DNA of 35,120 nucleotides from a virus: positions 1 to 35,120 of IMG/VR virus record IMGVR_UViG_3300009553_000054. One strand, written 5' to 3'. The translations under genes and the position numbers were made by a program. Below the pieces are notes generated by a model that saw only the letters and a program-made list of their open reading frames with translations, had not been told where the DNA came from and ran no database searches. Positions 1 to 27,686 of the stretch are shown here, piece after piece; the first letter of the stretch is position 1, and each line of letters starts with the position of its first letter.

Positions 1-36
1 GCCGCCGCCGATTCGCAAGAGGAGGGCGCACGATGA
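1..36 (+). CDS. C-terminal end of an upstream gene (partial)
   Basis: The first frame reads eleven codons (AAADSQEEGAR) and then TGA at 34-36. The next gene starts with ATG at 33, giving the ATGA stop-start overlap seen throughout this strand, which is why the stretch is taken as the end of a real gene. Too little remains to identify it. By position it would be a head gene, such as a capsid or head-assembly protein, but that is inference. Confidence 0.5.
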   Translation, partial: AAADSQEEGAR

Positions 37-137
37 TGTGTTGGCTGGGCTTCCACGCGTGGCGGCGCATCGAGGCGTTCATCGGCCGGGGGCTGCTCTA
101 CTGTGTGCGCTGCGGCCGCGTGAGCGCGGACGATTGA
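33..137 (+). CDS. 34-residue zinc-ribbon-like phage protein
   Basis: A short gene with a strong ribosome binding site (GAGGAGGG, about 18-25) just before ATG 33; a second ATG follows at 36. The product has an N-terminal CWLGFHAW and a C-terminal YCVRCGRV. This is the spacing of small phage proteins of the DUF1660 type, which carry C-x-x-x-GH-x-W followed by C-x-R-C-G. The three cysteines and the histidine could hold one zinc ion. It overlaps the gene before (ATGA) and the gene after (TGATG). Function is unknown. Family assignment is from pattern memory only. Similar tiny proteins recur in the minus-strand part of this window. Confidence 0.6.
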   Translation: MMCWLGFHAWRRIEAFIGRGLLYCVRCGRVSADD

Positions 138-955
138 TGCCCCGCCTCGCCGTCGAGATCCTCTGCTTCGAGCCGCACTCCGTTCGAGCGCGGGTGTTTT
201 TCAAGGCGCTGCGCGCGACGGCGGCGCTGGCCGCGCTGGCGGTCATCGAGACGACGCGGTATCAGGGCACCGCGGCGTGGTTGCTGCTCTGGGGACCAGG
301 CGCCCCGGACCGGTTCGACCCGATGCGGCGCCAAGTCGCGGCGGGTGGCCACGTGGCCGCGTTTGATCTTGCCTACTGGGGCCGCGACCGCAAGATCCGG
401 GTGTCGATCGATACGGCGCATCCGCAGGCGTGGGTGATGCGACACGACTGGCCCGCCGCGCGCTTCCTTGCCGATCACGTCCCAGTGAGTTCCACGTGGA
501 ACCCCGCCGGGCCGATCATTGTCGCGGGGATTGGTCGGAAAGCCCGCGCCCAATACGGCAGCCAAGTGGATACGTGGGAACGCACGATGATCGCCGCGTG
601 CCGCGCGCGCTGGCCGAAACACCGGCTGTACTACCGAGCGAAACAAGTCGATGCGCCGGTGCCGCAGCACGTCGTGATCATGAGCCCCGGCGCCGCGATT
701 GATCGCGCGCTCACCGGCGCGTCTCTGCTCATCACGTGGCATTCGAATGTCGCCATCGACGCGATCCGCATGGGCATTCCCGTCGTCTGTCGGGACGGCG
801 CGGCGGCGGCCGTGTGTCCGGCGGAGCTGCCCCCCGACCTTCAACCATTGGCGGCGCCACTCCGCGACCGGTTCCTCCGCAACTTAGCGTGGTTCCAGTG
901 GGACGCGAGCGAGGCGGCGGCGTGTTGGGCGTTCCTGCAACAGGTCATCACATGA
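137..955 (+). CDS. putative glycosyltransferase (GT-B-like)
   Basis: The product is 272 residues. ATG 137 is chosen because it overlaps the preceding stop (TGATG); the frame is open further up to a GTG at 38, but that would cover the small gene before it. The C-terminal half has LLITWHSNVAIDAIRMGIPV (about residues 200-219), which resembles the donor-side motif of capsule and surface-polysaccharide GT-B enzymes, where a serine or asparagine lies before 'AI-x-x-G-x-PV'. The N-terminal half has LLLWGPGAP and FDLAYWGRDRK, known to me from uncharacterised viral proteins. It is the first of six coupled sugar-modifying genes. The nucleotide-sugar donor and the acceptor cannot be inferred. Cytoplasmic; no signal peptide or membrane segment. 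Confidence 0.55.
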   Translation: MPRLAVEILCFEPHSVRARVFFKALRATAALAALAVIETTRYQGTAAWLLLWGPGAPDRFDPMRRQVAAGGHVAAFDLAYWGRDRKIRVSIDTAHPQAWVMRHDWPAARFLADHVPVSSTWNPAGPIIVAGIGRKARAQYGSQVDTWERTMIAACRARWPKHRLYYRAKQVDAPVPQHVVIMSPGAAIDRALTGASLLITWHSNVAIDAIRMGIPVVCRDGAAAAVCPAELPPDLQPLAAPLRDRFLRNLAWFQWDASEAAACWAFLQQVIT

Positions 956-1539
956 TCCCCAGCGTCATCGCCTATTGCCCGGAGCTCGGCCGGGACATCA
1001 GCCGGTTGCAGGCCGCCGTGCCGACGGCGCAGGTCTATCGGGCGACCCGCACCCCGCAGGGCACGGACGGCTGCCTGTTGGCACACCAAGGGATCGTGCG
1101 CTTGGCGCACGCCCAGCGGTGGCCCGCCGTCTTCGTCATGGAGGACGACTGCGAATTGACCGAGCACTTCAGCCCGGCGCGGTGGGAGGCGGATGTGGCG
1201 TGGGCGGCCGCCGCCGGCTACACCGTGCTCAGCGGCGGGTGTATTTCGGCCGCGCGGCCGCGCCTCGTGCGCGCGGGCCTCTTCGCGGTGGCGCGGTTCA
1301 AGTCGGCGCACTGTATCGTCTATCGGGCCGAGGCCTACGCGCTCGTGCTGCGCGCGACGCCGCCCTACTTGGACATCATGCTCGGCCGCCTCGGCGCCCG
1401 CTGCCTGCTGACCTATCCGTTCGTCGCGGTACAGCGGCCGGGGTTCTCGGGGATTCTGAATCGGTACGTGGATTACCGGCCGAAGTATCGGCGGTTTGAG
1501 CAACGATTAGGAGAGTTGGCGACCTCATGCGCATTGTGA
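952..1539 (+). CDS. GT25-like glycosyltransferase
   Basis: The product is 195 residues, starting at ATG 952 in an ATGA overlap. It shows the signature layout of family 25 (LPS/collagen-type) glycosyltransferases: GCLLAHQ at 40-46 (family form G-C-x-x-S-H), FVMEDDCEL at 61-69 with the acidic EDD that binds metal and nucleotide sugar, PYLDIML around 138-144, and VQRPGFSGI at 160-168 (family form Q-x-x-x-S-D-I). It is shorter than typical bacterial GT25 enzymes, so it may be a minimal catalytic domain. It would transfer a sugar, often galactose in this family, but the substrate here is not known. It lies inside the glycan cassette and overlaps the next gene by 13 bases. Confidence 0.7.
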   Translation: MIPSVIAYCPELGRDISRLQAAVPTAQVYRATRTPQGTDGCLLAHQGIVRLAHAQRWPAVFVMEDDCELTEHFSPARWEADVAWAAAAGYTVLSGGCISAARPRLVRAGLFAVARFKSAHCIVYRAEAYALVLRATPPYLDIMLGRLGARCLLTYPFVAVQRPGFSGILNRYVDYRPKYRRFEQRLGELATSCAL

Positions 1540-2267
1540 CGCCCTATCGGCCCTTCGTGGCGGAAGCCCACCCGGAAGCGCCGCCCTTCGATTGGCTCGA
1601 CGCGATTCGGATGCTGACCGTCAGCGCCGAGCGCGCGTGCGGCGTGCCGGTGACCGTCTTGACCGACGCCACCACGCCCATGCCGTTCCCGGTATTGCGG
1701 TATCCGACGACGACGACGCGGCTCCAGCCGTGGCTGACCGAGATTCGCCTCGCCTATCTGGAGTCGCCGGACTTCGACGACAACACCATCCTCGTCTCGC
1801 CGGACACGCTGCTGCTCGGCGACATCGGCACAGTGTTCGCCCAAGCCTTCGACCTCGCGCTACTGGTCCGCATGCACCCGAAGTTCGAGGGCCAGTGGAA
1901 AGCCATCCTCAATACGGTGCAATGGTGGCGGCACAATGCCAAGACGGCGTTGATTGCCTTCTATCGCGAGGCGCTCGCGATCGGCGTGGCCCTGCCGGAA
2001 GACCTCCAGGTCTGGGGCGGCGACACGGAAGCGTTGCGGCAACTCCTCGAGCCGATCATGTACGGGCCCGCCACCCGCGCCGGCTTGGCCGTCTACATGC
2101 TGTCCTCGCGCAGCGTCTTCCAGTCGCTCACGACCGAGATGATCGCGCAGTTGGACGCCGGGCAGCCGATGGGTCGGCCGCACGCGCCGATCTTCGACTT
2201 CAAGTATCGGCGCAAGGCGCACATGCGGCAGGCGTTCGAACAATTGTTCCCCGAGGTCGCGCCGTGA
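1527..2267 (+). CDS. putative GT-A fold glycosyltransferase-like protein
   Basis: The product is 246 residues, starting at ATG 1527 within the end of the previous gene; AGGAGA at about 1509-1514 is a plausible binding site. MRIVTPYRPF at the N-terminus and DDNTILVSPDTLLLGDI (84-100) resemble the nucleotide-binding strand and D-x-D region of GT8-like transferases, although the usual aspartate is replaced (VSPDT instead of DSDT). A later VWGGDTEALRQLLEP is a second conserved-looking block. Similar proteins of unknown function occur in uncultured phage genomes. Calling it a glycosyltransferase rests on the fold-like pattern and on its neighbours. The replaced acidic residue leaves catalysis open. 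Confidence 0.5.
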   Translation: MRIVTPYRPFVAEAHPEAPPFDWLDAIRMLTVSAERACGVPVTVLTDATTPMPFPVLRYPTTTTRLQPWLTEIRLAYLESPDFDDNTILVSPDTLLLGDIGTVFAQAFDLALLVRMHPKFEGQWKAILNTVQWWRHNAKTALIAFYREALAIGVALPEDLQVWGGDTEALRQLLEPIMYGPATRAGLAVYMLSSRSVFQSLTTEMIAQLDAGQPMGRPHAPIFDFKYRRKAHMRQAFEQLFPEVAP

Positions 2268-3019
2268 TCGAGTTCCTGGCGCGGCTCGCGGCGGACGGGC
2301 CCGTCGAGGACCGGCGCGTGGGCGTGGTCGTCGCGCACTACGACGACGAGACCCTCAGCGTGGCCGCCGTCTTACAGCGGTGCGCGCATGTCACGGTGAT
2401 CCACGCCACCGACGGCGGGCATCCTGATCCCCGCATGTGGATGCAGGCCGGCGCCCGGACGCTGAAGCAGTATCTCCGGGTCCGCGCGGCCGAAGTCGTG
2501 GCGGCGGCCGAGGCGGGCGGCTGGGCACACCACCGGCACATCGGCTACGGGTTGCCGGATCGCGCCGTCGTCCGTCACCTCCGGGCCACCGCCGCCCAGT
2601 TGCGCCGCGATCTCGCCGACGTGGACGTCGTGCTCACCCATCCCTACGAAGGCGGGCATCCCGACCACGATGCGCTGGCGTGGCTCATCCGTGAGCACGC
2701 GGCGGGACATTACGAATTCGCCTCGTATCACTTGGGGCCGCAGGGCAAGGTCGTCGGCCGGTTCTGGGACGATCCGGCCTGCCCGGCGCTCACCGTCCCG
2801 GTCGTCGGGGAGTCCTTGCAGCGGAAGCAGGCGGCGGCCGCCGCCTATGCCAGCCAGCACGGCGTGGTGGCGTGGTTCGATCTGACCCAGGAACGCTATC
2901 GCCGCGCGCCGACCTACGACTTCACGGCGGTGCCGCCGCCCGGCCGCTGCCTCTACGAACGGAAACGTTTCATGATGAGCGCCGACTGGCGGGCGCTCGT
3001 ACGCGAGCAAACCGCATGA
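2264..3019 (+). CDS. PIG-L family N-deacetylase
   Basis: The product is 251 residues. GTG 2264 is chosen because it overlaps the previous stop (GTGA) and gives the usual family length. Both zinc-binding signatures of the PIG-L/LmbE family are intact: AHYDDE at 24-29 (family AHPDDE, with Y in place of P) and EGGHPDHD at 129-136. These enzymes remove the acetyl group from N-acetylglucosamine-type sugars on lipids or small molecules. With glycosyltransferases on both sides and a methyltransferase behind it, a role in trimming an N-acetylhexosamine before or after transfer is reasonable. The substrate is not known. It has no signal peptide, so it acts in the cytoplasm. Confidence 0.88.
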   Translation: MIEFLARLAADGPVEDRRVGVVVAHYDDETLSVAAVLQRCAHVTVIHATDGGHPDPRMWMQAGARTLKQYLRVRAAEVVAAAEAGGWAHHRHIGYGLPDRAVVRHLRATAAQLRRDLADVDVVLTHPYEGGHPDHDALAWLIREHAAGHYEFASYHLGPQGKVVGRFWDDPACPALTVPVVGESLQRKQAAAAAYASQHGVVAWFDLTQERYRRAPTYDFTAVPPPGRCLYERKRFMMSADWRALVREQTA

Positions 3020-3678
3020 AGATCGCCAAAGGCTGGGCGTTCCCCGATGCCGACGAGCAGATGGTCGCGGAGTTGTCCGAGGACGGCCGCTACCAATCGA
3101 CCCACCTCGACGCGGCGATGCGCTACGTCAAGACGCACAGCGTGTGCATCGATGGCGGCGCGCATGTCGGCACCTGGTCGAAGCGGCTGAGCCCGCTCTT
3201 CAAGCGTGTGATTGCCGTCGAACCCAGCCCGGATACGTTCGAGGCGCTCGCCGCCAACATGCAGACGTTTGGCTGCGCCAACGTGGAACTCGTGCACGCG
3301 GCGCTCGGCGCCAAGAGCGGCGGCTTCGTCTCGATGGCGCTCGCCCCCGCTGCCGTGGCTCTCAAGAACACGGGGGCCCGCTACGCGGTGCCCACCGCCG
3401 ATGCCGCGATCCCGGTCATCCGCATTGACGATTGGAACTTGTCCTCGCTCGGGTTTCTCAAGCTCGATGTCGAAGGATCCGAGCCGATGGCCCTGGCGGG
3501 CGCCTCGCAGACGATCACGCGGTGCCGCCCGATCATCCTGTTCGAAAACAAGTGGCTCTGGGTGCGGCATTTCGGGGTGCCGAAACATGCCGTCGAGGTG
3601 CTGCTGACGCGGCACGGCTATCACAAGCTCCTCCAGATTAGCCACGACCAAATCTGGGGGCCGGTGGTGCAGCGGTGA
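3016..3678 (+). CDS. FkbM family methyltransferase
   Basis: The product is 220 residues, ATG 3016 in an ATGA overlap with the deacetylase. It has a class I SAM-dependent methyltransferase core: glycine-rich motif I DGGAHVGTW (46-54), acidic motif II VEPSPDTFEAL (68-78), and LKLDVEGSE (148-156), the diagnostic FkbM motif. Family members O-methylate sugars of glycans, glycolipids and glycosylated natural products. Here it would cap a sugar added by the neighbouring transferases. A 25-base gap separates it from the next gene, the largest break inside the cassette. Cytoplasmic. Confidence 0.9.
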   Translation: MKIAKGWAFPDADEQMVAELSEDGRYQSTHLDAAMRYVKTHSVCIDGGAHVGTWSKRLSPLFKRVIAVEPSPDTFEALAANMQTFGCANVELVHAALGAKSGGFVSMALAPAAVALKNTGARYAVPTADAAIPVIRIDDWNLSSLGFLKLDVEGSEPMALAGASQTITRCRPIILFENKWLWVRHFGVPKHAVEVLLTRHGYHKLLQISHDQIWGPVVQR

Positions 3679-3703
3679 CGGTAGGTACAATTCTCCTGCA
3701 CGC

Positions 3704-4561
3704 ATGAACATCCTGATTGTCGGCGCCGGACGGGGCAGTTGGCAGATGCGCGGCGTGCAGCTCGGCGCGGCACTCGGCGCACGCGTCACCTCCACGCCCA
3801 CCGACGCCGACTGGGAGTGGGCGGAACGCGTCGTCCTGGTCAAGCGCGCGGCGCTCCAATGGGCGAAGCGCGCCCACGTGCGGGGCGTGCCCATCGTCTG
3901 GGATGCCTTGGACTTCTGGCGGCAACCGCCGGACAACGGGCTGTCGGCCGGGGCGGCGCGCGCGCTCTTGGGCCAGATGCAGGATCGGATTGCCCCCACG
4001 CTGACCGTCGGCGCCACGCAGGCCATGGCGGCCGCCGCCGCCAACGGGCGGCGCAGCGCGTATCTGCCCCATCAGGGGCATCGGGACTTGGTGCCGACCG
4101 ACGCGCGCGAGGTCTGCCAGGTCGTCGGCTACGACGGCAACCCGGTCTATCTCGACCACTGGGCCGCGCCCCTGCGGGCGGCGTGTCGCGCCGTGGGCTG
4201 GACCTTCGTCGTCAATCCGCCGACGCTGGCGGCGGTCGATATTCTGGTCGCGCTGCGGGGCGGCATCTGGGATGGCTGGATGTGCCGCGAGTGGAAAAGC
4301 GGCGTCAAGGCGGTCAACGCCATCCTCGCCGGGCGCCCGCTCCTCACGCAACCCTCGGCCGCCGTGCGCGAATTGCAGCCGCTCGGATCGATCATCGAGA
4401 CGGTCGCGCAGGTGCCCCAGGCGCTTGAGACGTGGGCGCCTCACGCGCGCCGCCAACAGGTCGTCGACCTCGCCCGGACCCGGACGACTTCGTTCACCGT
4501 GGACACGCTGGCGGCGCAGTATGCGGCACTGCTCGCCGAGGTAAAGGACTGCCCATCATGA
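3704..4561 (+). CDS. putative glycosyltransferase (GT-B, group 1-like)
   Basis: The product is 285 residues from ATG 3704. The N-terminus MNILIVGAGRGSWQMRGVQ is a typical first strand and glycine loop of a GT-B enzyme. The C-terminal part has WKSGVKAVNAILAGRPLLT (about residues 204-222) followed by a 'SAAVRELQPLGS' stretch. That matches the donor-site layout of GT4-like proteins, where a lysine and a conserved 'N-A-x-x-x-G-R-P' loop hold the nucleotide sugar. It is small for a two-domain GT-B enzyme. It closes the cassette and overlaps the head-tail connector gene by ATGA, so glycan and virion genes are physically coupled. Confidence 0.6.
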   Translation: MNILIVGAGRGSWQMRGVQLGAALGARVTSTPTDADWEWAERVVLVKRAALQWAKRAHVRGVPIVWDALDFWRQPPDNGLSAGAARALLGQMQDRIAPTLTVGATQAMAAAAANGRRSAYLPHQGHRDLVPTDAREVCQVVGYDGNPVYLDHWAAPLRAACRAVGWTFVVNPPTLAAVDILVALRGGIWDGWMCREWKSGVKAVNAILAGRPLLTQPSAAVRELQPLGSIIETVAQVPQALETWAPHARRQQVVDLARTRTTSFTVDTLAAQYAALLAEVKDCPS

Positions 4562-5274
4562 TCATCACCACCACTGACCGGCCCGTCGCGTACACGCGCG
4601 TCAACAGTTCGCCGGCCGAACGGCTCGAACCGATCGACCTCACGTGGGGCAAGCAACAACTGCGCGTCGCGCCCACGGCGACCAGCGAAGACAATCTCAT
4701 CGCCGATGCGATTGCGGCGGCGCGCAGTTACTTCGAAGAGCAGACCGGCCGCCAGTGCCTCGATGCGGAGTGGGAGTACGCGCTGGACGGCGTGCCCGAT
4801 GAGGCCAGCATCGAGCTGCCGCGCGCGCCCCTGGCGCGGGTGGTCGCGGTAACCTACGACGATGCCGACGGCGTGGCGCAGGTCTTCGACGCCGCCAACT
4901 ACCGGGTCGTGTCGTCGGCCTTAACGGACACCGCCGCGTCGCCGAGCGATCCGTTGATCTTCGACGACCACTGCGCGCCGGGGCGCGTCGACTTGGTGGC
5001 GGGGGCGAGCTGGCCGAGCACGAGCGGGCTGACGGCGAGTCTCCGCATTCGGCGGGTGTGCGGCTATGGGCCGACCATCGCCGACATCCCGGCGTCGATT
5101 CGGGCGATTCTCGCGCTGCTGCTCGACTTCTACTACAGCCGGGGACTGAATCGCGAGAGCCTGCTGACGGCGAACAACCTGCTTTTGAGCTTCAAGTGGC
5201 GCGGGTTGCCGGTGCGGAAGCCGACGACATGGACGCCGAGCGTCATCGTGCCGCCATTAACTCTTACAAATTAA
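4558..5274 (+). CDS. head-tail connector (HK97 gp6-like)
   Basis: The product is 238 residues from ATG 4558 (ATGA overlap). Landmarks are an early helix DNLIADAIAAARSYFEEQTG followed by IELPRAPLARVVAVTY, and a late helix IPASIRAILALLLDFYY. These match gp6-like/phiE125 gp8-like connector proteins, which form a ring under the portal and bridge the filled head to the tail. It is somewhat longer than HK97 gp6, with an extra loop region around residues 120-165. The connector and closure genes that follow place the missing portal and capsid genes upstream of the glycan cassette. Confidence 0.8.
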   Translation: MIITTTDRPVAYTRVNSSPAERLEPIDLTWGKQQLRVAPTATSEDNLIADAIAAARSYFEEQTGRQCLDAEWEYALDGVPDEASIELPRAPLARVVAVTYDDADGVAQVFDAANYRVVSSALTDTAASPSDPLIFDDHCAPGRVDLVAGASWPSTSGLTASLRIRRVCGYGPTIADIPASIRAILALLLDFYYSRGLNRESLLTANNLLLSFKWRGLPVRKPTTWTPSVIVPPLTLTN

Positions 5275-5307
5275 ATCGCGAGTCGCGCCGGGCCGTAGGC
5301 TCGGGCG

Positions 5308-5775
5308 GTGCCGAATCCCTCCCGTCCGTACGATCCGGCGAAGCATCGCCGCAGTCGGCCGGACGCGAGTGAGACGCCGATCCAGCCGGGATTGCTCGAC
5401 CGCGAGATCATTTTGCAAGTGGCCGTCCTCGTCCAGTCGACCACCGGCGACCCGCAATACGACTGGGAGCACGCCACCAGTCACCACGTCTGGGCGCAAT
5501 GGCTCCCCGGCAGCACGCGCGAAGCGTGGGAAGCGCAGCAACGCCTCGCGAGCTTCGTGGACGGCGTCTACCGCATCTACTACCTCGACCCGGAGCCGAC
5601 GCCGGAAAACACACGCGTCATCGGCCACACCGGGCGCGTCTACGACCTCCGCCCGCCCATTGAAATCGGGCGGCGGCTCGGCCTCGATCTGCCCGTCGTG
5701 GCGCGCGGCGAAGTCGTCGACCTCACCGCCGGCGGCGCCGACACAGCGTGGACGCAGCCGGGGTGGATGCAGTGA
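5308..5775 (+). CDS. head closure / head-tail joining protein
   Basis: The product is 155 residues if GTG 5308 is the start; this is the first start after an in-frame stop at 5296-5298 and has no good ribosome binding site, so the N-terminus is uncertain. The core from LLDREIILQVAVLVQS onward, with VWAQWLPGSTREAWEAQQ and GHTGRVYDLRPPIEIG, follows the pattern of SPP1 gp16-type joining proteins, which plug the connector after DNA packaging. The preceding 33 bases carry no gene. Its position between connector and tail completion genes fits this role. Confidence 0.65.
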   Translation: MPNPSRPYDPAKHRRSRPDASETPIQPGLLDREIILQVAVLVQSTTGDPQYDWEHATSHHVWAQWLPGSTREAWEAQQRLASFVDGVYRIYYLDPEPTPENTRVIGHTGRVYDLRPPIEIGRRLGLDLPVVARGEVVDLTAGGADTAWTQPGWMQ

Positions 5776-6467
5776 GCGACGTCACCGTCCGCCCGGCCTT
5801 TCACTCGGCCTATCCCGATTCGGGGGACGCCACGAAGTTCGGCCCGACGGCGTGGAATGCGCCGCGCGTGTTCAGTGGCGGCACGGACGGACAAGTGGTG
5901 GCGCGCGACAGTGCGTCGCCGACCGGCGCGTCGTGGGCATCCCCCGTGGCGTCGATTCTCCATCAAGCCACGGTGACGCTGAACAACGACCAGATCAAGA
6001 CGTTGCCGTCCACCCCGGTGACGCTGTTGCCAGCACCCGCTGACGGTTACGGTTATCTCTGTCTCCTTGGGACGTTCCGCCTGAATATTGGAGTGGCCTA
6101 TGGCAACGTGGGTCATGCCGCCGACCCGCATGGCGTGACGGCCTTGTTTGTGCGCGGCCTCGGGTATATCCGCCAAGCGGCCCTCTCCCCGCTCTCAACC
6201 GGCGTCCCCGGCGGCGTCGTAATGATCGCCGCGAACCAAGTCGCAGCGCAGGCGGGCGACGCCGATGTCATTGCGAGCGTCGCAACGGCCGGTCAGGTAT
6301 ACGCGGACGGCGGAACGTTCGACGAGTCGCTGTACGTCGCAATCGACAACTACGACGCCGCCTACGAGGTCGAGTTGGGCGACTTCACCGGTGGTCATGC
6401 CGACAACACGCTCACGATGACGTTGGCCTATCTGCTGATCAATCTCACGACGGGCGTCTTCGTATGA
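5772..6467 (+). CDS. putative virion structural protein (fibre-like N-terminus)
   Basis: The product is 231 residues from GTG 5772, which overlaps the previous stop (GTGA); a GTG at 5748 is an alternative. The N-terminal part reads AWNAPRVFSGGTDGQVVARD then ASPTGASWASP. This is a short motif common near the start or in linkers of phage tail and fibre proteins that pair a sugar- or receptor-binding part with the virion. The remaining 170 residues look like beta-rich structural sequence with no family I recognise. A fibre-like gene between head closure and tail completion is unusual and may be a decoration protein. Function is inferred. Confidence 0.5.
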   Translation: MSDVTVRPAFHSAYPDSGDATKFGPTAWNAPRVFSGGTDGQVVARDSASPTGASWASPVASILHQATVTLNNDQIKTLPSTPVTLLPAPADGYGYLCLLGTFRLNIGVAYGNVGHAADPHGVTALFVRGLGYIRQAALSPLSTGVPGGVVMIAANQVAAQAGDADVIASVATAGQVYADGGTFDESLYVAIDNYDAAYEVELGDFTGGHADNTLTMTLAYLLINLTTGVFV

Positions 6468-6473
6468 GGCTGG

Positions 6474-6902
6474 ATGACCATCACCGAAGCCCTGCGCACG
6501 CACCTGCTCGGCGATGCCGCGATTGCGGCGCTCGTCGGGGCACGCATCTATCCGTTGCGCTTGCCCCAGAAAGTCACGATGCCGGCCATCGTGCTGAGCC
6601 TGATCTCCGACCCGCGTCCCGGGCATCTGCGCGGCGTCGCGGGCATGGCGCGCGCGCGCTACCAAGTCGACGCGTGGGCGCAGACCTACGACGGCGCGAC
6701 GCAGTTGGGCGGCCTCTGTCGCCAACGCCTCAACGGCTTTGCCGGCGAGTGGACCGATGGCGGCAGTCCGCCGGTGGTGGTCTACGCGAAGGTCTTTTAC
6801 GACACCGGGCAGGATCGCTTCGAAACCGAGATTCTCGGCGGCCTCGCGCGACACTCGGCCGATTACCTCATCTTTCACTCGACCGCCGGCGGCACGCTCT
6901 GA
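6474..6902 (+). CDS. tail completion protein (DUF3168-like)
   Basis: The product is 142 residues from ATG 6474, six bases after the previous stop. It begins MTITEALRTHLLGDAAIAAL and then VGARIYPLRLPQKVTMPAI, followed by RARYQVDAWAQTYDGATQL. This is the layout of DUF3168 / gp17-like tail completion proteins (about 120-145 residues), which cap the head-proximal end of the tail so that it can dock to the closed head. Length and position directly before the tail tube gene fit. A 47-base gap follows. Confidence 0.78.
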   Translation: MTITEALRTHLLGDAAIAALVGARIYPLRLPQKVTMPAIVLSLISDPRPGHLRGVAGMARARYQVDAWAQTYDGATQLGGLCRQRLNGFAGEWTDGGSPPVVVYAKVFYDTGQDRFETEILGGLARHSADYLIFHSTAGGTL

Positions 6903-6949
6903 CCACGTAAGGCACGTAACAGCACGGCACGACCACAGGAGCACGCACC

Positions 6950-7444
6950 ATGTCCAATGTCACCGACACCTTTTACGCGGGAGACGCCTTCATCGGCTAC
7001 GGCGCCCAGATCGAAGTGGGCCAGGGCGACAGCCCCGAAACGTTCGTGGCGATTCCCGACATCGAATCGATCACGTTCGGCGACATGACGACCGGCGTCG
7101 TCGATGTCACCCACCTGCGCTCGCCGGGGCGCCACCGCGAGAAGAAGGGCACCATCCGGGACAGCGGCCCGATCGCGCTGGCCGGCAACTATCGGCCCGA
7201 TCACGGCGCGCATCTCCAAACGGGCGGCGACGGCTTCGGAGCCGATCATTCGCTGTTGACCCTGTGGCGCAACGTGACCGAGACCAACTTCAAGATCGTG
7301 CTGCCGGCCGATGCCGGATCCACGGTGTTGCCGTTCCGCGGCGTGGTCACGAAGTACCAGATCGGCCAACTCGGACTCGACTCCAAGGTCGGGTTCATGT
7401 GCGAGATCACGCCGCTGTCTGATTACTCCGGCAGCCTGCCGTAA
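6950..7444 (+). CDS. major tail tube protein
   Basis: The product is 164 residues, ATG 6950 with a good ribosome binding site (CAGGAG, about 6936-6941). It opens with TFYAGDAFIGYGAQIEVG, contains IESITFGDMTTGVVDVTHL and RSPGRHREKKGTIRDSG, and ends with FRGVVTKYQIG then VGFMCEITPLSDY. This is the pattern of lambda V-like / TP901-type tail tube proteins, whose hexameric rings stack along the tape measure to form the non-contractile tail. Intact gene of usual length. It is followed by the chaperone genes, as in most siphophages. Confidence 0.8.
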   Translation: MSNVTDTFYAGDAFIGYGAQIEVGQGDSPETFVAIPDIESITFGDMTTGVVDVTHLRSPGRHREKKGTIRDSGPIALAGNYRPDHGAHLQTGGDGFGADHSLLTLWRNVTETNFKIVLPADAGSTVLPFRGVVTKYQIGQLGLDSKVGFMCEITPLSDYSGSLP

Positions 7445-7463
7445 GGCGGGCGGGCGGGGGTTC

Positions 7464-7874
7464 ATGGCGAATCAGGAACGCGGCGAGCTCACGCTCGTCG
7501 CGCCGGACGCGATCTATACGCTCGCGCTGACGGTGCAGACCGTGTGCGCCGTGGAGACGGCCGCCGGGCGGCCCTTCGCGGCGGTGTGCGCCGCGATGCA
7601 GCACCACGCCGTCCGCGATCTGCGGCTGTTCATCTGGGCCGCCCTGCAACCCTACCACGCGGCGATCGCGACGACCCTCGGCCAGGCGGGGGCGGTGATC
7701 GATGCCGCCGGCGGCTGGCGCGTGGTCACGCCCATCGCGTGCCGCTTGCTCCGCCTCAACGCTGACCCGCGCCCGCCGCCGCTGTTGGAGGGCGGGCGGC
7801 GCCCCGCGGACCCTCGTCGCGCCGCTCAGGGCCATGGCAACGCCTCTACGTGGATGCGCGACGCCTGGGCCTGA
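7464..7874 (+). CDS. tail assembly chaperone, GTA gp10-like
   Basis: The product is 136 residues from ATG 7464. RGELTLVAPDAIYTLALTVQ, CAVETAAGRPF and LRLFIWAALQP with AGAVIDAAGGW match the family named after gene transfer agent gp10, small proteins encoded between tail tube and tape measure that chaperone the tape measure. The first 100 residues look conserved. The last 35 (RRPADPRRAAQGHG and onward) look like filler and overlap the next gene in a different frame. The downstream gene at 8181 appears to be a paralogue. Loss of conservation in the C-terminus is compatible with a -1 frameshift product, as in lambda G-GT, but see the findings. Confidence 0.65.
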   Translation: MANQERGELTLVAPDAIYTLALTVQTVCAVETAAGRPFAAVCAAMQHHAVRDLRLFIWAALQPYHAAIATTLGQAGAVIDAAGGWRVVTPIACRLLRLNADPRPPPLLEGGRRPADPRRAAQGHGNASTWMRDAWA

Positions 7875-8143
7875 GCGGCGCGGAGTTCTGGCAACTCCGG
7901 CTGCGCGAGCTGTGGCTCGAGCTGGAAGCCGGGCAGCAACGCGAGCGCCGCGCCTACGAACGCGACGTGACGCACGCGTGGTTCGTCGAGTACATGGCGC
8001 GGCAGAAAGAACTGAGCGGCCAGACGCTGACCAAACTCCTGCGCCGCCCCGGCGAGCGCCAGACCTTGGACGAACAACGCGCCGTCGTCGAACAGATCCG
8101 CGCGCACTTCGGCTGGAAGTACGAATTTCGCCCGGCGGCCTGA
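7850..8143 (+). CDS. second tail assembly chaperone (GTA DUF2376-like)
   Basis: The product is 97 residues if started at GTG 7850, inside the previous gene. No ribosome binding site precedes this GTG. RRLGLSGAEFWQLRLRELWL resembles the short GTA-type proteins with 'LGL-S-x-x-E-F-W-x-L-T-x-x-E-L', encoded next to gp10. The rest is charged and helical. The matching part appears to begin a few residues earlier: the same frame reads PWQRLYVDARRLGLSG, back to a stop at 7763-7765. The true N-terminus may therefore come from an upstream TTG at 7784 or from a -1 frameshift out of the preceding gene. No clear slippery heptamer is visible. Confidence 0.6.
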   Translation: MDARRLGLSGAEFWQLRLRELWLELEAGQQRERRAYERDVTHAWFVEYMARQKELSGQTLTKLLRRPGERQTLDEQRAVVEQIRAHFGWKYEFRPAA

Positions 8144-8180
8144 CCGGCGGCCCGGCCCTTTCCCGTGGAGGACCCGATCC

Positions 8181-8573
8181 ATGACCCCGACCGTCGTGAC
8201 TGGCCACAGCGGCAGAGACTACCCGTTCTCGTTCGGCACCAACGCGATGTGCCGCGTCGAAAAACTCAGTGGCGCCCCCATCGGCGTCATCTTCGCTACC
8301 TTGAGCACCGGCGAACCGCCCATCGTGCTGCTGCGGCAGTTCGTGCAGGGCACGCTCGTGCTCACCCCGATGCCGTCCGAAGAGGAAGTCGGCGACATCA
8401 TCGACGACCTCGGGGGGATGTCGACCGCGCTGCTCCTGATCAGTGCCGCGATGAACAAGCTGGCCGCGCCGCCACCGGGAGCGGACCCTGACGGCGCGCC
8501 CGTCTCCGCGCCCGAGCCGCCGCCGCCGGGACTCGAGGAGACGCCCGGCCCCGTGCTGGTCGAGGCGCGCTGA
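8181..8573 (+). CDS. GTA gp10-like paralogue (tail assembly)
   Basis: The product is 130 residues, ATG 8181 behind GGAGG (about 8167-8171). RDYPFSFGTNAMCRVEKLSG, then VLLRQFVQGTLVLTPM and EVGDIIDDLGGMSTALLLIS, follow the same order of blocks as the protein at 7464: beta strands, a 'N-A-x-C-x-x-E-x-x-x-G' helix, and a 'D-x-x-G-G' turn. A proline-rich tail (about residues 95-125) ends it. Two copies of one chaperone family before a tape measure is unusual; one may have taken another role. Overlaps the next gene (TGATG). Confidence 0.55.
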   Translation: MTPTVVTGHSGRDYPFSFGTNAMCRVEKLSGAPIGVIFATLSTGEPPIVLLRQFVQGTLVLTPMPSEEEVGDIIDDLGGMSTALLLISAAMNKLAAPPPGADPDGAPVSAPEPPPPGLEETPGPVLVEAR

Positions 8574-9025
8574 TGGCCGACGCCGGCGTGACGGCGCCCG
8601 GGTTGGCGGCGTTGCGGGCGAAGGTGGACACCTTCCCCGCCGTCGTCACCGCGCAACTGCGATCCGTCGCCTGGCGCACCTCCCGCCGCGTCATGGAGCA
8701 GGCCAAGGCCAAGGTCCCAGTCGACACCGGCTACACCCAAGACAACATCTACGTCGCCGAAGAGCCGGACAAGAAGCTGTTCCGCGTTGAGGCCGGCACC
8801 GACCGGCCCCGCGTCCGCATCGTCACGCACGCGAAGCCCTCGGGCCGCGTGCACACCCAGAGCGTGACGCTCAACATGCTGCCGGTCTGGCTCGAATACG
8901 GCACCATCCACATGGCCGCGCGGCCCTTCCTGCGGCCGGCGGCCGACGCCGAAATCGACCGCTACAAAGCCGAGATGCTGGCCGCCGCCGAAGGCGTCGC
9001 CAAGCAGGAGTTGGCGGCGCCATGA
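8573..9025 (+). CDS. HK97 gp10-like minor tail / neck protein
   Basis: The product is 150 residues from ATG 8573 in a TGATG overlap. Two family landmarks are present: AKVPVDTGYTQDNI (46-59; family 'P-V-x-T-G-x-L') and WLEYGTIHMAARPFLRPA (106-123; family 'E-x-G-T ... P-F-x-R-P-A'). HK97 gp10-type proteins contribute to the head-tail neck or tail terminator. They are normally encoded before the tail tube gene; here the gene lies after the chaperones and directly before the tape measure. It overlaps the tape measure start by ATGA. Confidence 0.8.
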   Translation: MADAGVTAPGLAALRAKVDTFPAVVTAQLRSVAWRTSRRVMEQAKAKVPVDTGYTQDNIYVAEEPDKKLFRVEAGTDRPRVRIVTHAKPSGRVHTQSVTLNMLPVWLEYGTIHMAARPFLRPAADAEIDRYKAEMLAAAEGVAKQELAAP

Positions 9026-16969: not shown

Positions 16970-18607
16970 ATGGCTCGATCTCGGATCTTGGTCCCGCGTC
17001 TGCCGACCCCGAAGCCAGGGGTCGGTGCGTCGATTGACTGGTCGCATCCACTCGCCGCACAACTCTGCTTTGCGGCCTTGCTGAACGAATGGGGGGCGAC
17101 GCAATGCCAGAACCTCGTGGGGCAGACGCGCGGCGACTTCTCCGGCAGCACCAAACCCTCGTGGATCGGCGGCCAGCGTGCGGGCCTGAATTTTCCGGGC
17201 GGCGCGAACACGGTGGGCTATCTGTCCTACGGGGCGGAGACCTGGGCCACGGACCTGGGGCGGAGCACCAGTAATCCGGCCACCTACGCCTTCCGCATCT
17301 ACCGTGCGGATAGCACCGACGGCGTCGTGATCGGCCGCAACGACGGCAACACCATCTCGCCGGGATGGCAAATCTCCGTGTTCGCAACTTCGATGCTATT
17401 CACTCATGAGCAGTCCACTTCGAATCGTCAGACATCCTGCGCCGGCCTCGTGAATAGTAGTTGGCAGACCGTCGTGATTGTCGATGACGGCAGTCTCGTT
17501 TCCGCAAATGTTCAAATCTATCTTGACGGCATCAAGGTCGCGCATTCTGTTGACCAAGATGGCATCGGGACCTCGGGCTCCGACGCGGCGGAGACCCTGT
17601 ATGTCGGCCGGGGCAACGCCAATTACGGCCTCGGGAATAACGGGTTTTTCGGCACGATTGATTGGGTCTACCTCTGGAAGCGGATGCTCACGCCGGGCGA
17701 AGTTCGCAGCCTCACACGGGATCCGTACCAACTGTTCCGCGATTCGGCGGCGCTGTTTACCGGGAGATTCGTCGAACCCGCCGCCACCCTGGCCGTCCTG
17801 AACGACCTCCAGCGTGCGGCCCCTGCCGCCGGGGCCAACGTCACGCTGACGCCGAGCGGCACCGCGTGGACGAGTTCGGCGTGGGTCGAGTTGATTGCCG
17901 CAGTGGGCGCCGACAGCATCCTGACCGGCTTGGTGGTGTCGACCGCGTGGGGGAATAGCTCCGTCGTCGATAACCACTGGGAAATCGACGTGGCGACTGG
18001 GGCGGCGGCGTCGGAAGTCGTGATCGCCACCTTCAAGGGCCGGATTCGCGGCATCTTTAGCGATGTCCAGGACAGCACGCAATGGATTCCCACCGTCCTC
18101 GGCATTGACGCGATCGCCAATGGGGCGCGGCTCTCGGCGCGCATTCGCACCGGCTCGACCGACACCACCGTCTGGACGTGCGCCGCGACCTATATCCACA
18201 AACCGTTGTCGGGGACCATCCTGACCACGGCTCAGCCCTTGATCGCGCTGCCCGCCGCCGCCGCCGCCGTGTCCGTCACGGCCAGCGGGACGCCGTGGGC
18301 GAACGGTGCGTGGGTGGAACTCCGGGCGGCCAGCGGCGCGGCCCTCGTCCTGACCGGCATCGTGTTGAGTGCGGACACGTCGGGTGAGTGTGAATTCGAT
18401 CTCGGCACCGGAGGCAGCGGATCCGAGACGGTGATCACGACGGTGCGGATCGTCGCCGAGGGGGCGTCCACGTATTTCGGCACGTACCCGCTCTCCGTCC
18501 CGCTGGACAACATCGCCGCGTCCACGCGCATCGCCGCCCGCCTCCGACACGCCACGGCGTCCGCCGGGGGGATGGTGGCGCTCATGGGCTTCGAGAAACC
18601 CCTATGA
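16970..18607 (+). CDS. LamG-like tail protein with two C-terminal repeat modules
   Basis: The product is 545 residues from ATG 16970. Residues about 60-265 form a laminin G-like domain: TYAFRIYR, VVIGRNDG, QTVVIVDDG, VQIYLDGIKVAH, TLYVGRGN, FFGTIDWVYLWKRMLTPGEV. The last block is the classical end of a LamG domain ('G-x-I-D-x-v-x-i-y-x-r-x-L-s-x-x-E-i'). Two modules of about 130-145 residues follow, each with 'a-W-t-n-s-a-W-V-E-L' near the start and ending in 'R-I-a-a-R-l-R'. The next gene begins with two more copies. Part of the LamG sequence (17401-17580) is clearly lower in GC than its surroundings. Likely receptor-binding. Confidence 0.6.
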   Translation: MARSRILVPRLPTPKPGVGASIDWSHPLAAQLCFAALLNEWGATQCQNLVGQTRGDFSGSTKPSWIGGQRAGLNFPGGANTVGYLSYGAETWATDLGRSTSNPATYAFRIYRADSTDGVVIGRNDGNTISPGWQISVFATSMLFTHEQSTSNRQTSCAGLVNSSWQTVVIVDDGSLVSANVQIYLDGIKVAHSVDQDGIGTSGSDAAETLYVGRGNANYGLGNNGFFGTIDWVYLWKRMLTPGEVRSLTRDPYQLFRDSAALFTGRFVEPAATLAVLNDLQRAAPAAGANVTLTPSGTAWTSSAWVELIAAVGADSILTGLVVSTAWGNSSVVDNHWEIDVATGAAASEVVIATFKGRIRGIFSDVQDSTQWIPTVLGIDAIANGARLSARIRTGSTDTTVWTCAATYIHKPLSGTILTTAQPLIALPAAAAAVSVTASGTPWANGAWVELRAASGAALVLTGIVLSADTSGECEFDLGTGGSGSETVITTVRIVAEGASTYFGTYPLSVPLDNIAASTRIAARLRHATASAGGMVALMGFEKPL

Positions 18608-23370: not shown

Positions 23371-23466
23371 ATGGATCTCCCCGTCCTGATCCGCACCGAT
23401 CGCGGCGTCCTGGCCTTCTGGCCCAACGGCTGTATCAGTTATCGCGACACCCCGAGGCCCGCATGA
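23371..23466 (+). CDS. 31-residue small protein
   Basis: ATG 23371 follows a good binding site (GGAGGAA, 23359-23365), and the stop overlaps the next start (ATGA at 23463-23466). Both signs support translation. The product has DLPVLIRTDRGVLAFWPNG near its start, a small beta-hairpin-like sequence with one cysteine. No family is recognised. Confidence 0.5.
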   Translation: MDLPVLIRTDRGVLAFWPNGCISYRDTPRPA

Positions 23467-23957
23467 GGGCCGCCCTCGTCGCCGTCGTGATCTGTATGGG
23501 GGCGATACCGATCAGCGCCCAGGAACCGGTGCGGCGCGTCCCGGATGCCGTCACCTGGCTGACGGCCTCGGCCAATCCGATCGTCGCCGTGATCCTCGCT
23601 GCGCGCTCCGACGCGCCGCGGTGCCGCCTGACGCAACTGGGGATCTCCGGCGGCATCACCACGACGGTCGGGCTGCTCGCGCAGCACTACGTCACGTCGC
23701 CACGGCCCTGCGTCGGGTCGCCCGGGTGCAGCGGCAATGGCGCGCCCTCGCTGCACACCGCGTGGGGCGTGCTCGGCATCTCGCGCGGCGTCCATTCCGG
23801 CTTGGGCATCACCTTCAGCGTCGCCATGGCGGTCGGCACCGCCGGCGGGCGCGTCGATGCGAGGCGCCACACGCCGCGGCAGGTGCTCGAGGGGCTGGTT
23901 CTCGGGAGCGCGGCGGAATGGGCGGGGCAGCGGCTGCTCCGGTGTGACACGCCATGA
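23463..23957 (+). CDS. secreted PAP2-like phosphatase homologue
   Basis: The product is 164 residues from ATG 23463 (ATGA overlap). The first 20 residues are a signal peptide ending AIPISAQE. The three motifs of type 2 phosphatidic acid phosphatases follow in order: RP at 81-82 (family K-x6-R-P, but residue 74 is Q, not K), PSLH at 95-98 (family P-S-G-H), and GRVDARRHTPRQ at 129-140 (family S-R-x5-H-x3-D, with G for S and Q for D). The catalytic histidines and arginines are kept while two or three supporting residues are changed. It may dephosphorylate a lipid such as undecaprenyl pyrophosphate, or may have lost activity. Such a gene is unexpected in a phage late region. Confidence 0.6.
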   Translation: MRAALVAVVICMGAIPISAQEPVRRVPDAVTWLTASANPIVAVILAARSDAPRCRLTQLGISGGITTTVGLLAQHYVTSPRPCVGSPGCSGNGAPSLHTAWGVLGISRGVHSGLGITFSVAMAVGTAGGRVDARRHTPRQVLEGLVLGSAAEWAGQRLLRCDTP

Positions 23958-25495
23958 CCTATAAACTGACGCTCGTCGCCCTGCTCCTCGTCGCCTCGCG
24001 CGTCTCGCCGGCCGCCAGCGGGCTCTGCGGGATGCAGCTCAATCAAGCCGCCGTCGTCTTCTGCGAGACCTTCGACACGCCGCAGCCAGACCGCACGTCG
24101 CGCACCGGCGACCTCGACGAGAACGTCTGGGGCGTCTCGCGCGCCGTCGGCCAGCAGAACGGCCCGAACCCGTGGCCGACGTCGAAGCACGGCGGCTGCG
24201 ACCTGATGACGACCGTCGTGCCGCCGAACGACGTCCGCATCTGCAACGGACGGCTCGTGAACGTCGTGAACGACGCGCACAACGTCATCGTGCTGGCCAT
24301 GTACCCGAAGCAGCCCTTCGATTGGGCGAACCGCACCGGCACGGTGAGCTTCGACGTGACCAACGATACGCAGGGGACGCACGGCGCGTGGCCCGAGTTC
24401 TGGATCACCGACCTGCCGATCCCCGCGCCGTTTGCGCACTTCGGCTCGTGGATCGCGAACCCGCGCCACGGGTTCGGCCTTCGCTTCGCGACCGCGGCGA
24501 AGCCCGGCGACGTCGGGTACTGCGACTACACGCCGCCGTTCGACTCGTGGCGGTTCACCGTCGACAGCGCGATCGTCATCCGCGATTACGTCTATGAGGA
24601 CACGGCGGCCGGGGACCTCGGCTCGACCGCGTCGACCCCGCCGCTCACGGTGACGCCGCTCGCGTGCGTCAAGCAGACCGCGACGCGGCAGGCGTGGGGC
24701 GACCCGCTCGGGCCGCTCAACCACATCGAGATCCGCATCGCGGCGAACCTGATCGAGGTCTGGGCGTCCGACGCCGGGTCGACCGTGCTGCGACACATCG
24801 CCGACGTCACCAACGCGCGGCTGCCGTTGACGCGGGGCCTGGTGTGGCTCGAAGACGCCCACTACAACGCGAGCAAGGGCATCTGTCCGCAGGAAGACGG
24901 CACGGGCGGCAACCTGCCCGCCTGTCAAGACGACCATGCCTTCGGCTGGGACAACCTCGCCTTTGACGGCCCGTTCGTGTATCGCGACTTCAGCTACGAC
25001 GCGCTGGATGCGGCAGGGGTCGGCCCGACGCTCGGCGACGGCAGCGCCTCGACGCTGCTCGGCCAAGACTCACCCGCCAACGGCGCCAGCGCGTGGAGTG
25101 TCTTGGCGATGCCGGCGAACCCGCAGGCCGCTGCGGTGCGCGTGCTGTTCAACGCGTTCGTCTCCACGGTGCCGTCGATCCTGACCGTCACGGTCAACGG
25201 GCACGCGCACGTGCAGGCGTGGCCGTATCCCAACACGCCGTCGGGCCCGTTCGCGGGGCCGCAGGGCGGCACGTGGCGCACCGACGCGCTCACGATCCCG
25301 ATCACCGACCTCGTTGCCGGGACGAACGTCGTCACCATCGGCGCCGATCAGGGGATCACGATCGCGAACGTCAACATCGTGCTCGTCGACGTGCCAGGCG
25401 GCGTGCCGGTGCTGCCGAACTCGAACGACGCGTACCCAGGCACCACGCCGCCGCCGATCGTGCGGCCGGCGACGAACGTGCGGATCGTCCCATGA
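23954..25495 (+). CDS. secreted ConA/LamG-like protein
   Basis: The product is 513 residues from ATG 23954 (ATGA overlap). MTYKLTLVALLLVASRVSPA is a signal peptide. Residues about 30-350 look like a concanavalin-like jelly roll: VVFCETFDTP, DENVWGVSR, GTVSFDVTND, AWPEFWITDLP, IEIRIAANLIEVWASDAG, RGLVWLEDAHYN, WDNLAFDGPF. A second beta domain occupies 360-490. The E-x-D-x-x-E catalytic motif of GH16 glucanases is not seen, so sugar binding is likelier than cleavage. Eight or more cysteines suit an extracytoplasmic protein. It may change the lysogen surface or serve in lysis. Confidence 0.5.
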   Translation: MTYKLTLVALLLVASRVSPAASGLCGMQLNQAAVVFCETFDTPQPDRTSRTGDLDENVWGVSRAVGQQNGPNPWPTSKHGGCDLMTTVVPPNDVRICNGRLVNVVNDAHNVIVLAMYPKQPFDWANRTGTVSFDVTNDTQGTHGAWPEFWITDLPIPAPFAHFGSWIANPRHGFGLRFATAAKPGDVGYCDYTPPFDSWRFTVDSAIVIRDYVYEDTAAGDLGSTASTPPLTVTPLACVKQTATRQAWGDPLGPLNHIEIRIAANLIEVWASDAGSTVLRHIADVTNARLPLTRGLVWLEDAHYNASKGICPQEDGTGGNLPACQDDHAFGWDNLAFDGPFVYRDFSYDALDAAGVGPTLGDGSASTLLGQDSPANGASAWSVLAMPANPQAAAVRVLFNAFVSTVPSILTVTVNGHAHVQAWPYPNTPSGPFAGPQGGTWRTDALTIPITDLVAGTNVVTIGADQGITIANVNIVLVDVPGGVPVLPNSNDAYPGTTPPPIVRPATNVRIVP

Positions 25496-26323: not shown

Positions 26324-26538
26324 GACGACGTTCTGGGCACACCTTCCAGCCACCGTGTAAACTCGTCGAATTCTTCTCGTGTCAATCGGCAACCATAAGG
26401 CACTGCCCGCCCATCGTCCACGCGGGCAAACCGTCCGCAATAGCGGCACGGTCCCCAATCTTCGACTGGTGGTGGAGGAACCGGTGAATGCTTGCCGAAA
26501 CACAGAAACTCAGGTCGTCTCATGTCCGCCGCCCTCAT
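26299..26538 (-). CDS. 79-residue zinc-finger-like protein coupled to integrase
   Basis: ATG 26538 overlaps the integrase stop (ATGA), so the two are probably translated together. EFLCFGKHSP is followed by a proline run, then CRYCGRFARVDDGRAVPYGC and a helix TREEFDEFTRWLEG. The C-x-x-C plus a distant cysteine, and an earlier C/H pair, could bind zinc. The final residues are encoded by the integrase arm repeats, so the gene ends inside attP. Being co-expressed with the integrase it could be an accessory or directionality factor, but no excisionase family is recognised; function is not known. Confidence 0.6.
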   Translation of the reverse strand: MRAADMRRPEFLCFGKHSPVPPPPVEDWGPCRYCGRFARVDDGRAVPYGCRLTREEFDEFTRWLEGVPRTSSGVRRGSE

Positions 26539-27686
26539 GCCCCGAGGCCCGCCAGCTTCTGGGCGGCCTCGCGCAGGTCATCCGGCGAGACGATGTTGTA
26601 CCGCTGAAAGACCGCGAACGTCCGATGCCCGGTGAGCGCCATGGCGACCTTGGCGGGCACGCCCCGCCGGACCATGTTGCGGATCGCGGTGCGGCGAAAG
26701 TCATGGCCCAACTTGCCGGGCTGGCCGGCGGCCACGCACGCCGCGGCCCAGGCCTTATCGAATCGCTTGATGGGTTTCGCCCGTCGGGGCGAGTCCTTTG
26801 CCGCGCCCCCCCGCTTCGTCGCGTAGGTCCGAAAGAACAGCCACCGACAGATCACGCCGGTCGCGGCCAGTGCGTCGACCTTGTCGCGTTGCTCCCGGAG
26901 GACGCGCCGAAGTTCCGGCGTAAACGGGAATTCGCGCGCGTCCTCATTCTTGGTCGTGTGGGGATCGAGGGTGAGCGTCCCGGCATTGAAGTCGACTTGG
27001 CGCCACTCCAGCGTTAAGACCTCGCTCGGGATGCGCCACCCCGTGATGTAGGCGACCGTCACGACCGGCCGCAGCTCTGGCGGCAACTTCGCCCGGACGG
27101 CTTCAAAGGCGGCGGCCTCGAAGTAGCCAAGCCGGACATTGTGCTCGGCCAGATTGGCGATGTGGGGCGCCGCCGTGCTGAGCCGCTCGTGCTGCGTCGC
27201 GAGCGAGAACATGCGGCGCAGGAGGATGAGATCCTTATTGACGGTGGCCGCCTTGGCGCCCTCGTCCAATCGGTGTTGCGTGAACGCTTCGATGCGGTCC
27301 CGGCGAATCTGGTGCATCTTGGTCCCGCCGCCGAAGAACGGCTCGAGATGCAGCCGGAAGCGATACTCGTTCTCGCGCAGGGTCTTGCGATCATTGTTGC
27401 GGTAGTTGGCGACCACGGCTTGGTACGCCTCGGTCAGCGTGATCGTGTTGATGTCGGGACCGACGGCCACGCCCTTGTTGCGGTCCGCCATCAGCGCCGT
27501 CCACGCCCGCATCGCCAAGCGTTCGTCCGCCGTCTTCGTGCTGCGCTTCACGGGTCGGTTCGTCGCCGGGTCGTGATACCGCATCGTCCAGATCGTGCGG
27601 CCCTTGTTTCGAATGAGGCCGGTGCCCTCGATGGTCTGCGTGCCGTCGGGGCGTGTCTTGATCGTCAGATCGTGTCCGCGTGGCAC
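26535..27686 (-). CDS. int: tyrosine site-specific integrase
   Basis: The product is 383 residues from GTG 27686, preceded by AAGGGGG and coupled to the gene before it (TAGTG). N-terminal arm-binding and core-binding domains (about 1-70 and 75-180) precede the catalytic domain. All catalytic residues are visible: R218 in YITGWRIPSEVL, K246 in TTKNED, H328 and R331 in HDFRRTAIRNM, H354 in LTGHRTF, and Y363 in FQRYNI. It recombines attP with the host tRNA-Cys gene. The gene reads towards attP, whose arm repeats overlap the following small gene. Full length with no sign of damage. Confidence 0.95.
   Translation of the reverse strand: MPRGHDLTIKTRPDGTQTIEGTGLIRNKGRTIWTMRYHDPATNRPVKRSTKTADERLAMRAWTALMADRNKGVAVGPDINTITLTEAYQAVVANYRNNDRKTLRENEYRFRLHLEPFFGGGTKMHQIRRDRIEAFTQHRLDEGAKAATVNKDLILLRRMFSLATQHERLSTAAPHIANLAEHNVRLGYFEAAAFEAVRAKLPPELRPVVTVAYITGWRIPSEVLTLEWRQVDFNAGTLTLDPHTTKNEDAREFPFTPELRRVLREQRDKVDALAATGVICRWLFFRTYATKRGGAAKDSPRRAKPIKRFDKAWAAACVAAGQPGKLGHDFRRTAIRNMVRRGVPAKVAMALTGHRTFAVFQRYNIVSPDDLREAAQKLAGLGA

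Follow-up and report, generated by a model that had tools for sequence, protein, structure and literature searches.

A conserved, modular glycan-modification cassette coupled to the head-tail connector gene in uncultured phages

The window, that is, the whole stretch of DNA analysed here, is an IMG/VR contig taken in full: linear, 35,120 bp long and possibly incomplete, with a left end that truncates the locus under study. Six genes on the plus strand, A (137–955), B (952–1539), C (1527–2267), D (2264–3019, GTG start), E (3016–3678) and F (3704–4561), lead into the head-tail connector gene (4558–5274, +; phrog_442, PHROG 442, 2.1e-16). From A through the connector, five of the six junctions overlap, by either 4 or 13 bp, whereas 25 bp separate gene E from the start of F at position 3704; an ATGA overlap links gene F to the connector. 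Abutting or overlapping the start of gene A is a 34-aa reading frame (MMCWLGFHAW...; 33–136, +), which recurs at positions 1565–1669 of the sibling contig L003 described below. Downstream of the connector the order is head closure, tail terminator, major tail, chaperone-like, neck and tape measure genes; by PHROGs, the remainder of the connector and tail-start module spans 5308–9025 (+), with Hc1 at 5308–5775 (+), the tail terminator at 6474–6902 (+), the major tail protein at 6950–7444 (+), the tail chaperone-like gene at 8181–8573 (+) and the neck gene at 8573–9025 (+). A scan of positions 1–6000 found no sigma-70-like promoter, which is weak evidence, as the scan covers that type only. A preliminary description had presented 137–4561 as a coupled six-gene set joined by ATGA to the connector and lying between capsid and connector genes. 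The reading frames and overlaps bear this out, although a gap precedes gene F and six is not the full count, as a sibling contig adds genes upstream. The placement next to a capsid gene does not hold: no capsid gene was found in the 35,120-bp window, and most relatives have a portal or collagen-like gene upstream.

The tail region and the sequence beyond it contain further features. An imperfect palindrome of about 65 bp (7818–7882) is 79% self-complementary, and a 545-aa tail-region protein (16970–18607, +) has a Laminin_G_3/concanavalin-like domain (1.8e-9), making it a candidate host-binding protein. Downstream of the tail genes, a reading frame with a weak PAP2 phosphatase match (23460–23957, +; E 9e-4) adjoins a secreted-looking 513-aa reading frame without a Pfam family (23954–25495).

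Two of the six genes belong to recognised families. Judged by its matches, gene D is clearly a member of the PIG-L/LmbE family and a predicted N-deacetylase: it scores 55.3 bits against Pfam PIG-L (PF02585; 1.3e-14), above the curated cut-off of 28.2, and profile matches among solved structures include 2ixd, BshB, DacPh and MshB. Its metal-binding and catalytic motifs AHxDDE and GHxDH (H25, D27, D28, E29, H132, D134, H135) are invariant in five homologues, confirming the intact deacetylase signature reported earlier. Gene E likewise has a clear predicted place in the FkbM methyltransferase family, as had been proposed, exceeding the cut-offs of both Pfam FkbM (PF05050; 3.5e-16, 60.3 bits against 22.7) and NCBIfam TIGR01444 (7.5e-23, 81.6 bits against 37.7), with a further match to PHROG 8156 (2.9e-25).

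Genes C and F have no family match in sequence libraries, and their assignment comes from predicted structures. The AlphaFold2 model of C (pLDDT 94, pTM 0.91) has a GT-A glycosyltransferase fold, with a best Foldseek match of 2.4e-7 and VIA-align Z scores of 13–14 over about 200 residues to Skp1 GalT, the glycosyltransferase domain of LH3, glycogenin, UGGT and mimivirus R699. In its DxD motif, the second Asp (D93) is invariant in 24 sequences; the first position is Asp in 11, Ser in 11 (SPD in the window) and Cys in two. The model of F (pLDDT 95, pTM 0.90) has a GT-B glycosyltransferase fold, matching SenB in Foldseek (4e-9) and BshA (269 residues), PimA, SenB and MshA at a VIA-align Z of 21. 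Since W197 and N205, both invariant in 16 sequences, replace the two glutamates of the GT4 E-x7-E motif in an alignment made by eye, we describe F as a GT-B-fold protein and do not file it as GT4. The structure prediction that had been suggested as a check thus returned confident glycosyltransferase folds for both proteins on which it was run.

Genes A and B are less distinct. The window's gene A protein falls below the cut-off of the Pfam family DUF6716, 'putative glycosyltransferase' (PF20471; E 0.036, 13.5 bits against 27), and 7 of its 22 homologues match that family, the best at E 1.3e-6; the protein carries a conserved motif, TWHSNVAxDAIRxGxPVVCRDG. Gene B carries an EDD motif (MEDD) and has weak matches to Pfam Glyco_transf_25 (PF01755; E 0.098, 39 residues aligned, 12.9 bits and hence below the curated cut-off of 24) and to a PHROG glucosyltransferase family (PHROG 2835; E 0.02), so that it is a GT25-like candidate and the intact GT25 signature once ascribed to it is not borne out. 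Sequence searches of solved structures with A, B and the DUF115 and GT8 genes introduced below returned nothing usable. Of the four glycosyltransferase-like genes originally named, C and F are therefore well founded by their folds, A moderately through its homologues, and B by a weak, short match. Overall, support for a role in glycan modification extends to each of the six genes; it is strong for four and weak for A and B.

A sibling contig, IMGVR_UViG_3300025935_000020 (L003), is 98.7% identical to the window across the cassette and 88–92% across the tail region. The higher identity spans window positions 1–5982 (cassette and connector), and a recombination boundary may lie near 5982. The sibling extends 1.5 kb further upstream, where it encodes a GT8-like protein (Pfam 7e-4), which shares 47% identity with a glycosyltransferase from a Pelagibacter phage, and a DUF115/MptE-like protein that PHROGs call an alpha-2,3-sialyltransferase (7e-28). 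With these two genes counted, the cassette comprises at least eight predicted enzymes. Between window and sibling, pN/pS is 0.11 across the cassette, connector and Hc1; substitutions are strongly synonymous, a sign of purifying selection, and the cassette genes are therefore working. The same ratio, together with conservation across relatives, led us to reject chance reading frames as an explanation.

We retrieved relatives from IMG/VR with profiles of GT8, F and A, setting near-identical contigs aside by eye. Sixteen further lineages carry the order DUF115-GT8-A-C-[optional genes]-FkbM-F-connector. When the window's DUF115 and GT8 genes are taken from its sibling, DUF115, GT8, A, C and FkbM follow one another in this order in all 17 lineages, gene A thus belonging to the core throughout, and F comes next in 16, the seventeenth stopping at a contig edge. 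Between C and F lie optional members, namely an MT2 methyltransferase (8 of the 17 lineages), a glycosyltransferase-like gene X with a TOD1/MUCI70 match (6), PIG-L (5), an MT1 methyltransferase (3) and, in some relatives, second copies of C. Gene B, between A and C, occurs in one of the 17; its homologue was seen solely in the window and its sibling and was not found in the cassettes of relatives. The core is not inviolable, because the small contig L102 carries a reduced set (DUF115, F, DUF115). Core genes share about 46–55% mean identity across lineages, and Mantel comparisons gave 0.64 for A and C, 0.66 for A and FkbM and 0.74 for A and the connector; the core genes have partly shared histories. 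The search for the same six-gene order elsewhere thus recovered the core order but not the exact six, and a set that transfers, deacetylates and methylates sugars describes the cassette incompletely: methylation belongs to the core, while deacetylation is an optional rather than a defining step. The six-gene order is a single variant of a cassette that is both modular and conserved.

In all of these lineages the cassette lies within the head-tail module. Longer relatives show the order terminase, protease-capsid fusion, portal, collagen-like gene, cassette, connector, and in 17 of 18 judgeable lineages the portal-adjacent collagen-like gene sits directly upstream of the cassette. The exception, L111, has no collagen-like gene, its cassette lying almost directly 3' of a different capsid gene. 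The collagen-like protein combines an N-terminus that is coiled-coil-like by eye, Gly-X-Y repeats and, at the C-terminus, a domain that weakly matches CBM_5_12; the L021 protein matches Pfam Collagen at 9e-32. In the latter (L021:8198-9136), the C-terminal domain also matches the ends of the PHROG 'portal protein' families 1289 and 2271, which suggests portal-collagen fusions or clustering errors. Between portal and connector, four cassette-free phages whose portal is similar (EBPR siphovirus 3, RHph_X2_26, SOVA965 and PAJU2) encode a protein that shares the C-terminal domain of the collagen-like protein, and in three of them Gly-X-Y repeats are few or absent. The simplest reading is therefore that the collagen-like gene belongs to an older head module into which the cassette was inserted afterwards. 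The median Gly-X-Y stretch is 121.5 residues with the cassette and 21 without (n = 14 and 33; Mann-Whitney p 4e-5), but carriers fall mostly in one portal clade, and the association does not represent many independent events. We accordingly toned down the simple statistical claim that a cassette means a longer collagen.

The same slot holds other glycosyltransferases (Glyco_trans_1_2, GT2 and GT92-like) in L129 and L131, two relatives that share the head layout, and glycan genes lie immediately 3' of the connector in L173, L067 and Tetraselmis viridis virus S20. The slot behaves as a cassette insertion site where phages appear to swap glycan chemistry. The alternative cassette of L131 also contains a 952-aa reading frame (L131:16077-18932), B12-binding/radical-SAM-like, whose cysteine motif is split by what looks by eye like an intein-like insert.

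No match was found among GenBank phages at the DNA level with the first 6.5 kb of the window or by tblastn of C, D and F. Profiles of A and F against GTDB representative genomes, in a search seeded by exact patterns, gave pattern matches and no confirmed relative. On this basis, and given a phage-specific gene order, we rejected acquisition of an entire host LPS operon. Virion glycosylation itself is of a known kind. According to PMC12363180, which cites Freeman et al. 2023, the mycobacteriophage glycosyltransferases Che8 gp110 and Corndog gp38 yield the kind of product proposed here, a glycan on virion proteins; as portrayed there, those systems have experimental support and rely on single key glycosyltransferases, in contrast to the at least eight predicted enzymes here, PIG-L and FkbM among them. 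The orf7 of Pseudomonas phage D3 (PmgO, 'alpha-2,3-sialyltransferase', phrog_4603) is 31% identical to the sibling's DUF115 gene and lies at nearly the same site, flanked by the capsid and connector genes, but as one gene with no neighbouring glycan enzymes. Tetraselmis viridis virus S20 / SI1 has several glycosyltransferases, two DUF115 genes, FkbM and another methyltransferase within the head-tail module; unlike in our lineages, this block lies mostly between connector and Hc1, its glycosyltransferases differ (GT2-like by eye), A, C and F are not detectable, and no PIG-L was recognised. More distantly, PBCV-1 and mimivirus, giant viruses of eukaryotes, use virus-encoded glycosyltransferases and methyltransferases to decorate capsid or collagen-like proteins with methylated glycans (PMC4691112); the folds that resemble protein C include PBCV-1 A064R and mimivirus R699, a likeness of structure. 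The view that a glycan set at this site is unusual survives for the conserved multi-enzyme form, whereas single glycosyltransferase-like genes and multi-gene blocks at the site (D3 orf7, S20) were already in public records. We found no description of such a cassette in the open-licence literature. What is new is the recognition of a multi-enzyme cassette that 17 uncultured lineages share, with FkbM in its core and PIG-L as an option, together with the constancy of its slot and fold assignments for two glycosyltransferase families unnamed by sequence libraries.

We consider it probable that the cassette glycosylates a virion protein of the phage itself, late and in the host cytosol, with a methylated and sometimes deacetylated glycan. 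Along the route that we infer, for catalytic activity, step order, late expression and virion acceptor alike, the GT-A and GT-B enzymes would add sugars from nucleotide-sugar donors, PIG-L, in lineages having it, would strip an N-acetyl group, and FkbM, with further SAM methyltransferases in relatives, would O-methylate the glycan; expression would coincide with that of the virion genes, and glycosylation would take place in the host cytosol. Hydropathy revealed no clear transmembrane helix in the cassette enzymes; DUF115 and C show borderline stretches, that of C not forming a long helix in the predicted model. The lack of a clear membrane segment, the coupling to virion genes and the unconfirmed status of A and F in GTDB favour a cytosolic acceptor produced late, and hence a virion protein. 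There are precedents: mycobacteriophages attach sugars to capsid and tail tube by means of glycosyltransferases that they encode (PMC12363180, citing Freeman 2023), and both PMC12363180 and PMC12691614 report glycosylation of mycobacteriophage virions by phage-encoded enzymes. Gene order alone falls short of proving late expression. Moreover, a tyrosine integrase (26535–27686, −; Pfam 2e-17) makes a temperate phage probable, so that the cassette could be expressed in a lysogen, which counts against late action on the virion.

The integrase also counts in favour of the next explanation, that the cassette alters a host surface polysaccharide (LPS or capsule) and thereby blocks superinfection or prevents lysed debris from capturing progeny. 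Phage glycosyltransferases modify the host surface in serotype conversion, and cytosolic glycosyltransferases also produce LPS core and O-chain precursors, because of which missing membrane proteins are not decisive. The abundant GT8 genes of pelagimyophages were interpreted by their authors as O-chain modifiers (PMC7029224). Nevertheless, we regard action on the host surface as possible but unlikely: the cassette genes lack the membrane components known from gtr-type serotype conversion, with neither a gtrA/gtrB-like nor any other membrane glycan-export gene among them; the cassette sits in, and couples to, the virion operon in all lineages; and A and F are unmatched in bacterial genomes by the pattern-seeded GTDB search.

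Returning to a virion acceptor, the collagen-like protein with its CBM-like C-terminus is an attractive candidate for the acceptor or for a fibre that displays the glycan, and a capsid or tail-tube protein is equally possible as acceptor. The sharper proposal that this protein is the specific acceptor, giving a glycosylated collagen fibre on the head and a counterpart among bacterial viruses to the glycosylated collagen of mimivirus, draws on its position next to the cassette, on its longer Gly-X-Y repeats in carriers, and on the structural proximity of protein C to the collagen glucosyltransferases LH3 and mimivirus R699. Collagen-like proteins such as SPP1 gp12 can decorate phage capsids (PMC6316719), and mimivirus collagen is glucosylated by the virus (PMC4691112). 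We hold the proposal to be doubtful because carriers represent mostly a single portal clade and C fits collagen glycosyltransferases no better than glycogenin or UGGT. In addition, the collagen-like gene also occurs in cassette-free phages, L111 has a cassette without it, no cassette gene was recognised as a lysyl hydroxylase, and the collagen-like gene is known from relatives, the window's own contig starting within the cassette. As for glycosylation of phage DNA bases, a T4-like hypermodification for which phage glycosyltransferases are known, it is very improbable here, given placement in a virion operon, no base hydroxylase or hydroxymethyltransferase among the genes examined in the window (part of a genome), and a deacetylase and several different glycosyltransferase folds that suit an oligosaccharide better.

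Should the virion prove to be the target, the cassette would amount to a particle-glycosylation system that is elaborate and modular, has been maintained in evolution and keeps to one place in the genome. Its position between the portal or collagen-like gene and the connector would mark phages with decorated particles, and its genes would form a defined set for reconstitution. The C and F types represent glycosyltransferase families without a name in sequence libraries, and a slot where phages appear to exchange sugar chemistries fits particle glycans under changing selection. It is a tentative and rather unlikely extension that a siphophage family assembles an oligosaccharide, methylated and in some lineages also N-deacetylated, on the collagen-like fibre encoded next to the portal, through exchangeable cassettes between the fibre gene and the connector; if true, it would mean glycosylated virion collagen in bacterial viruses.
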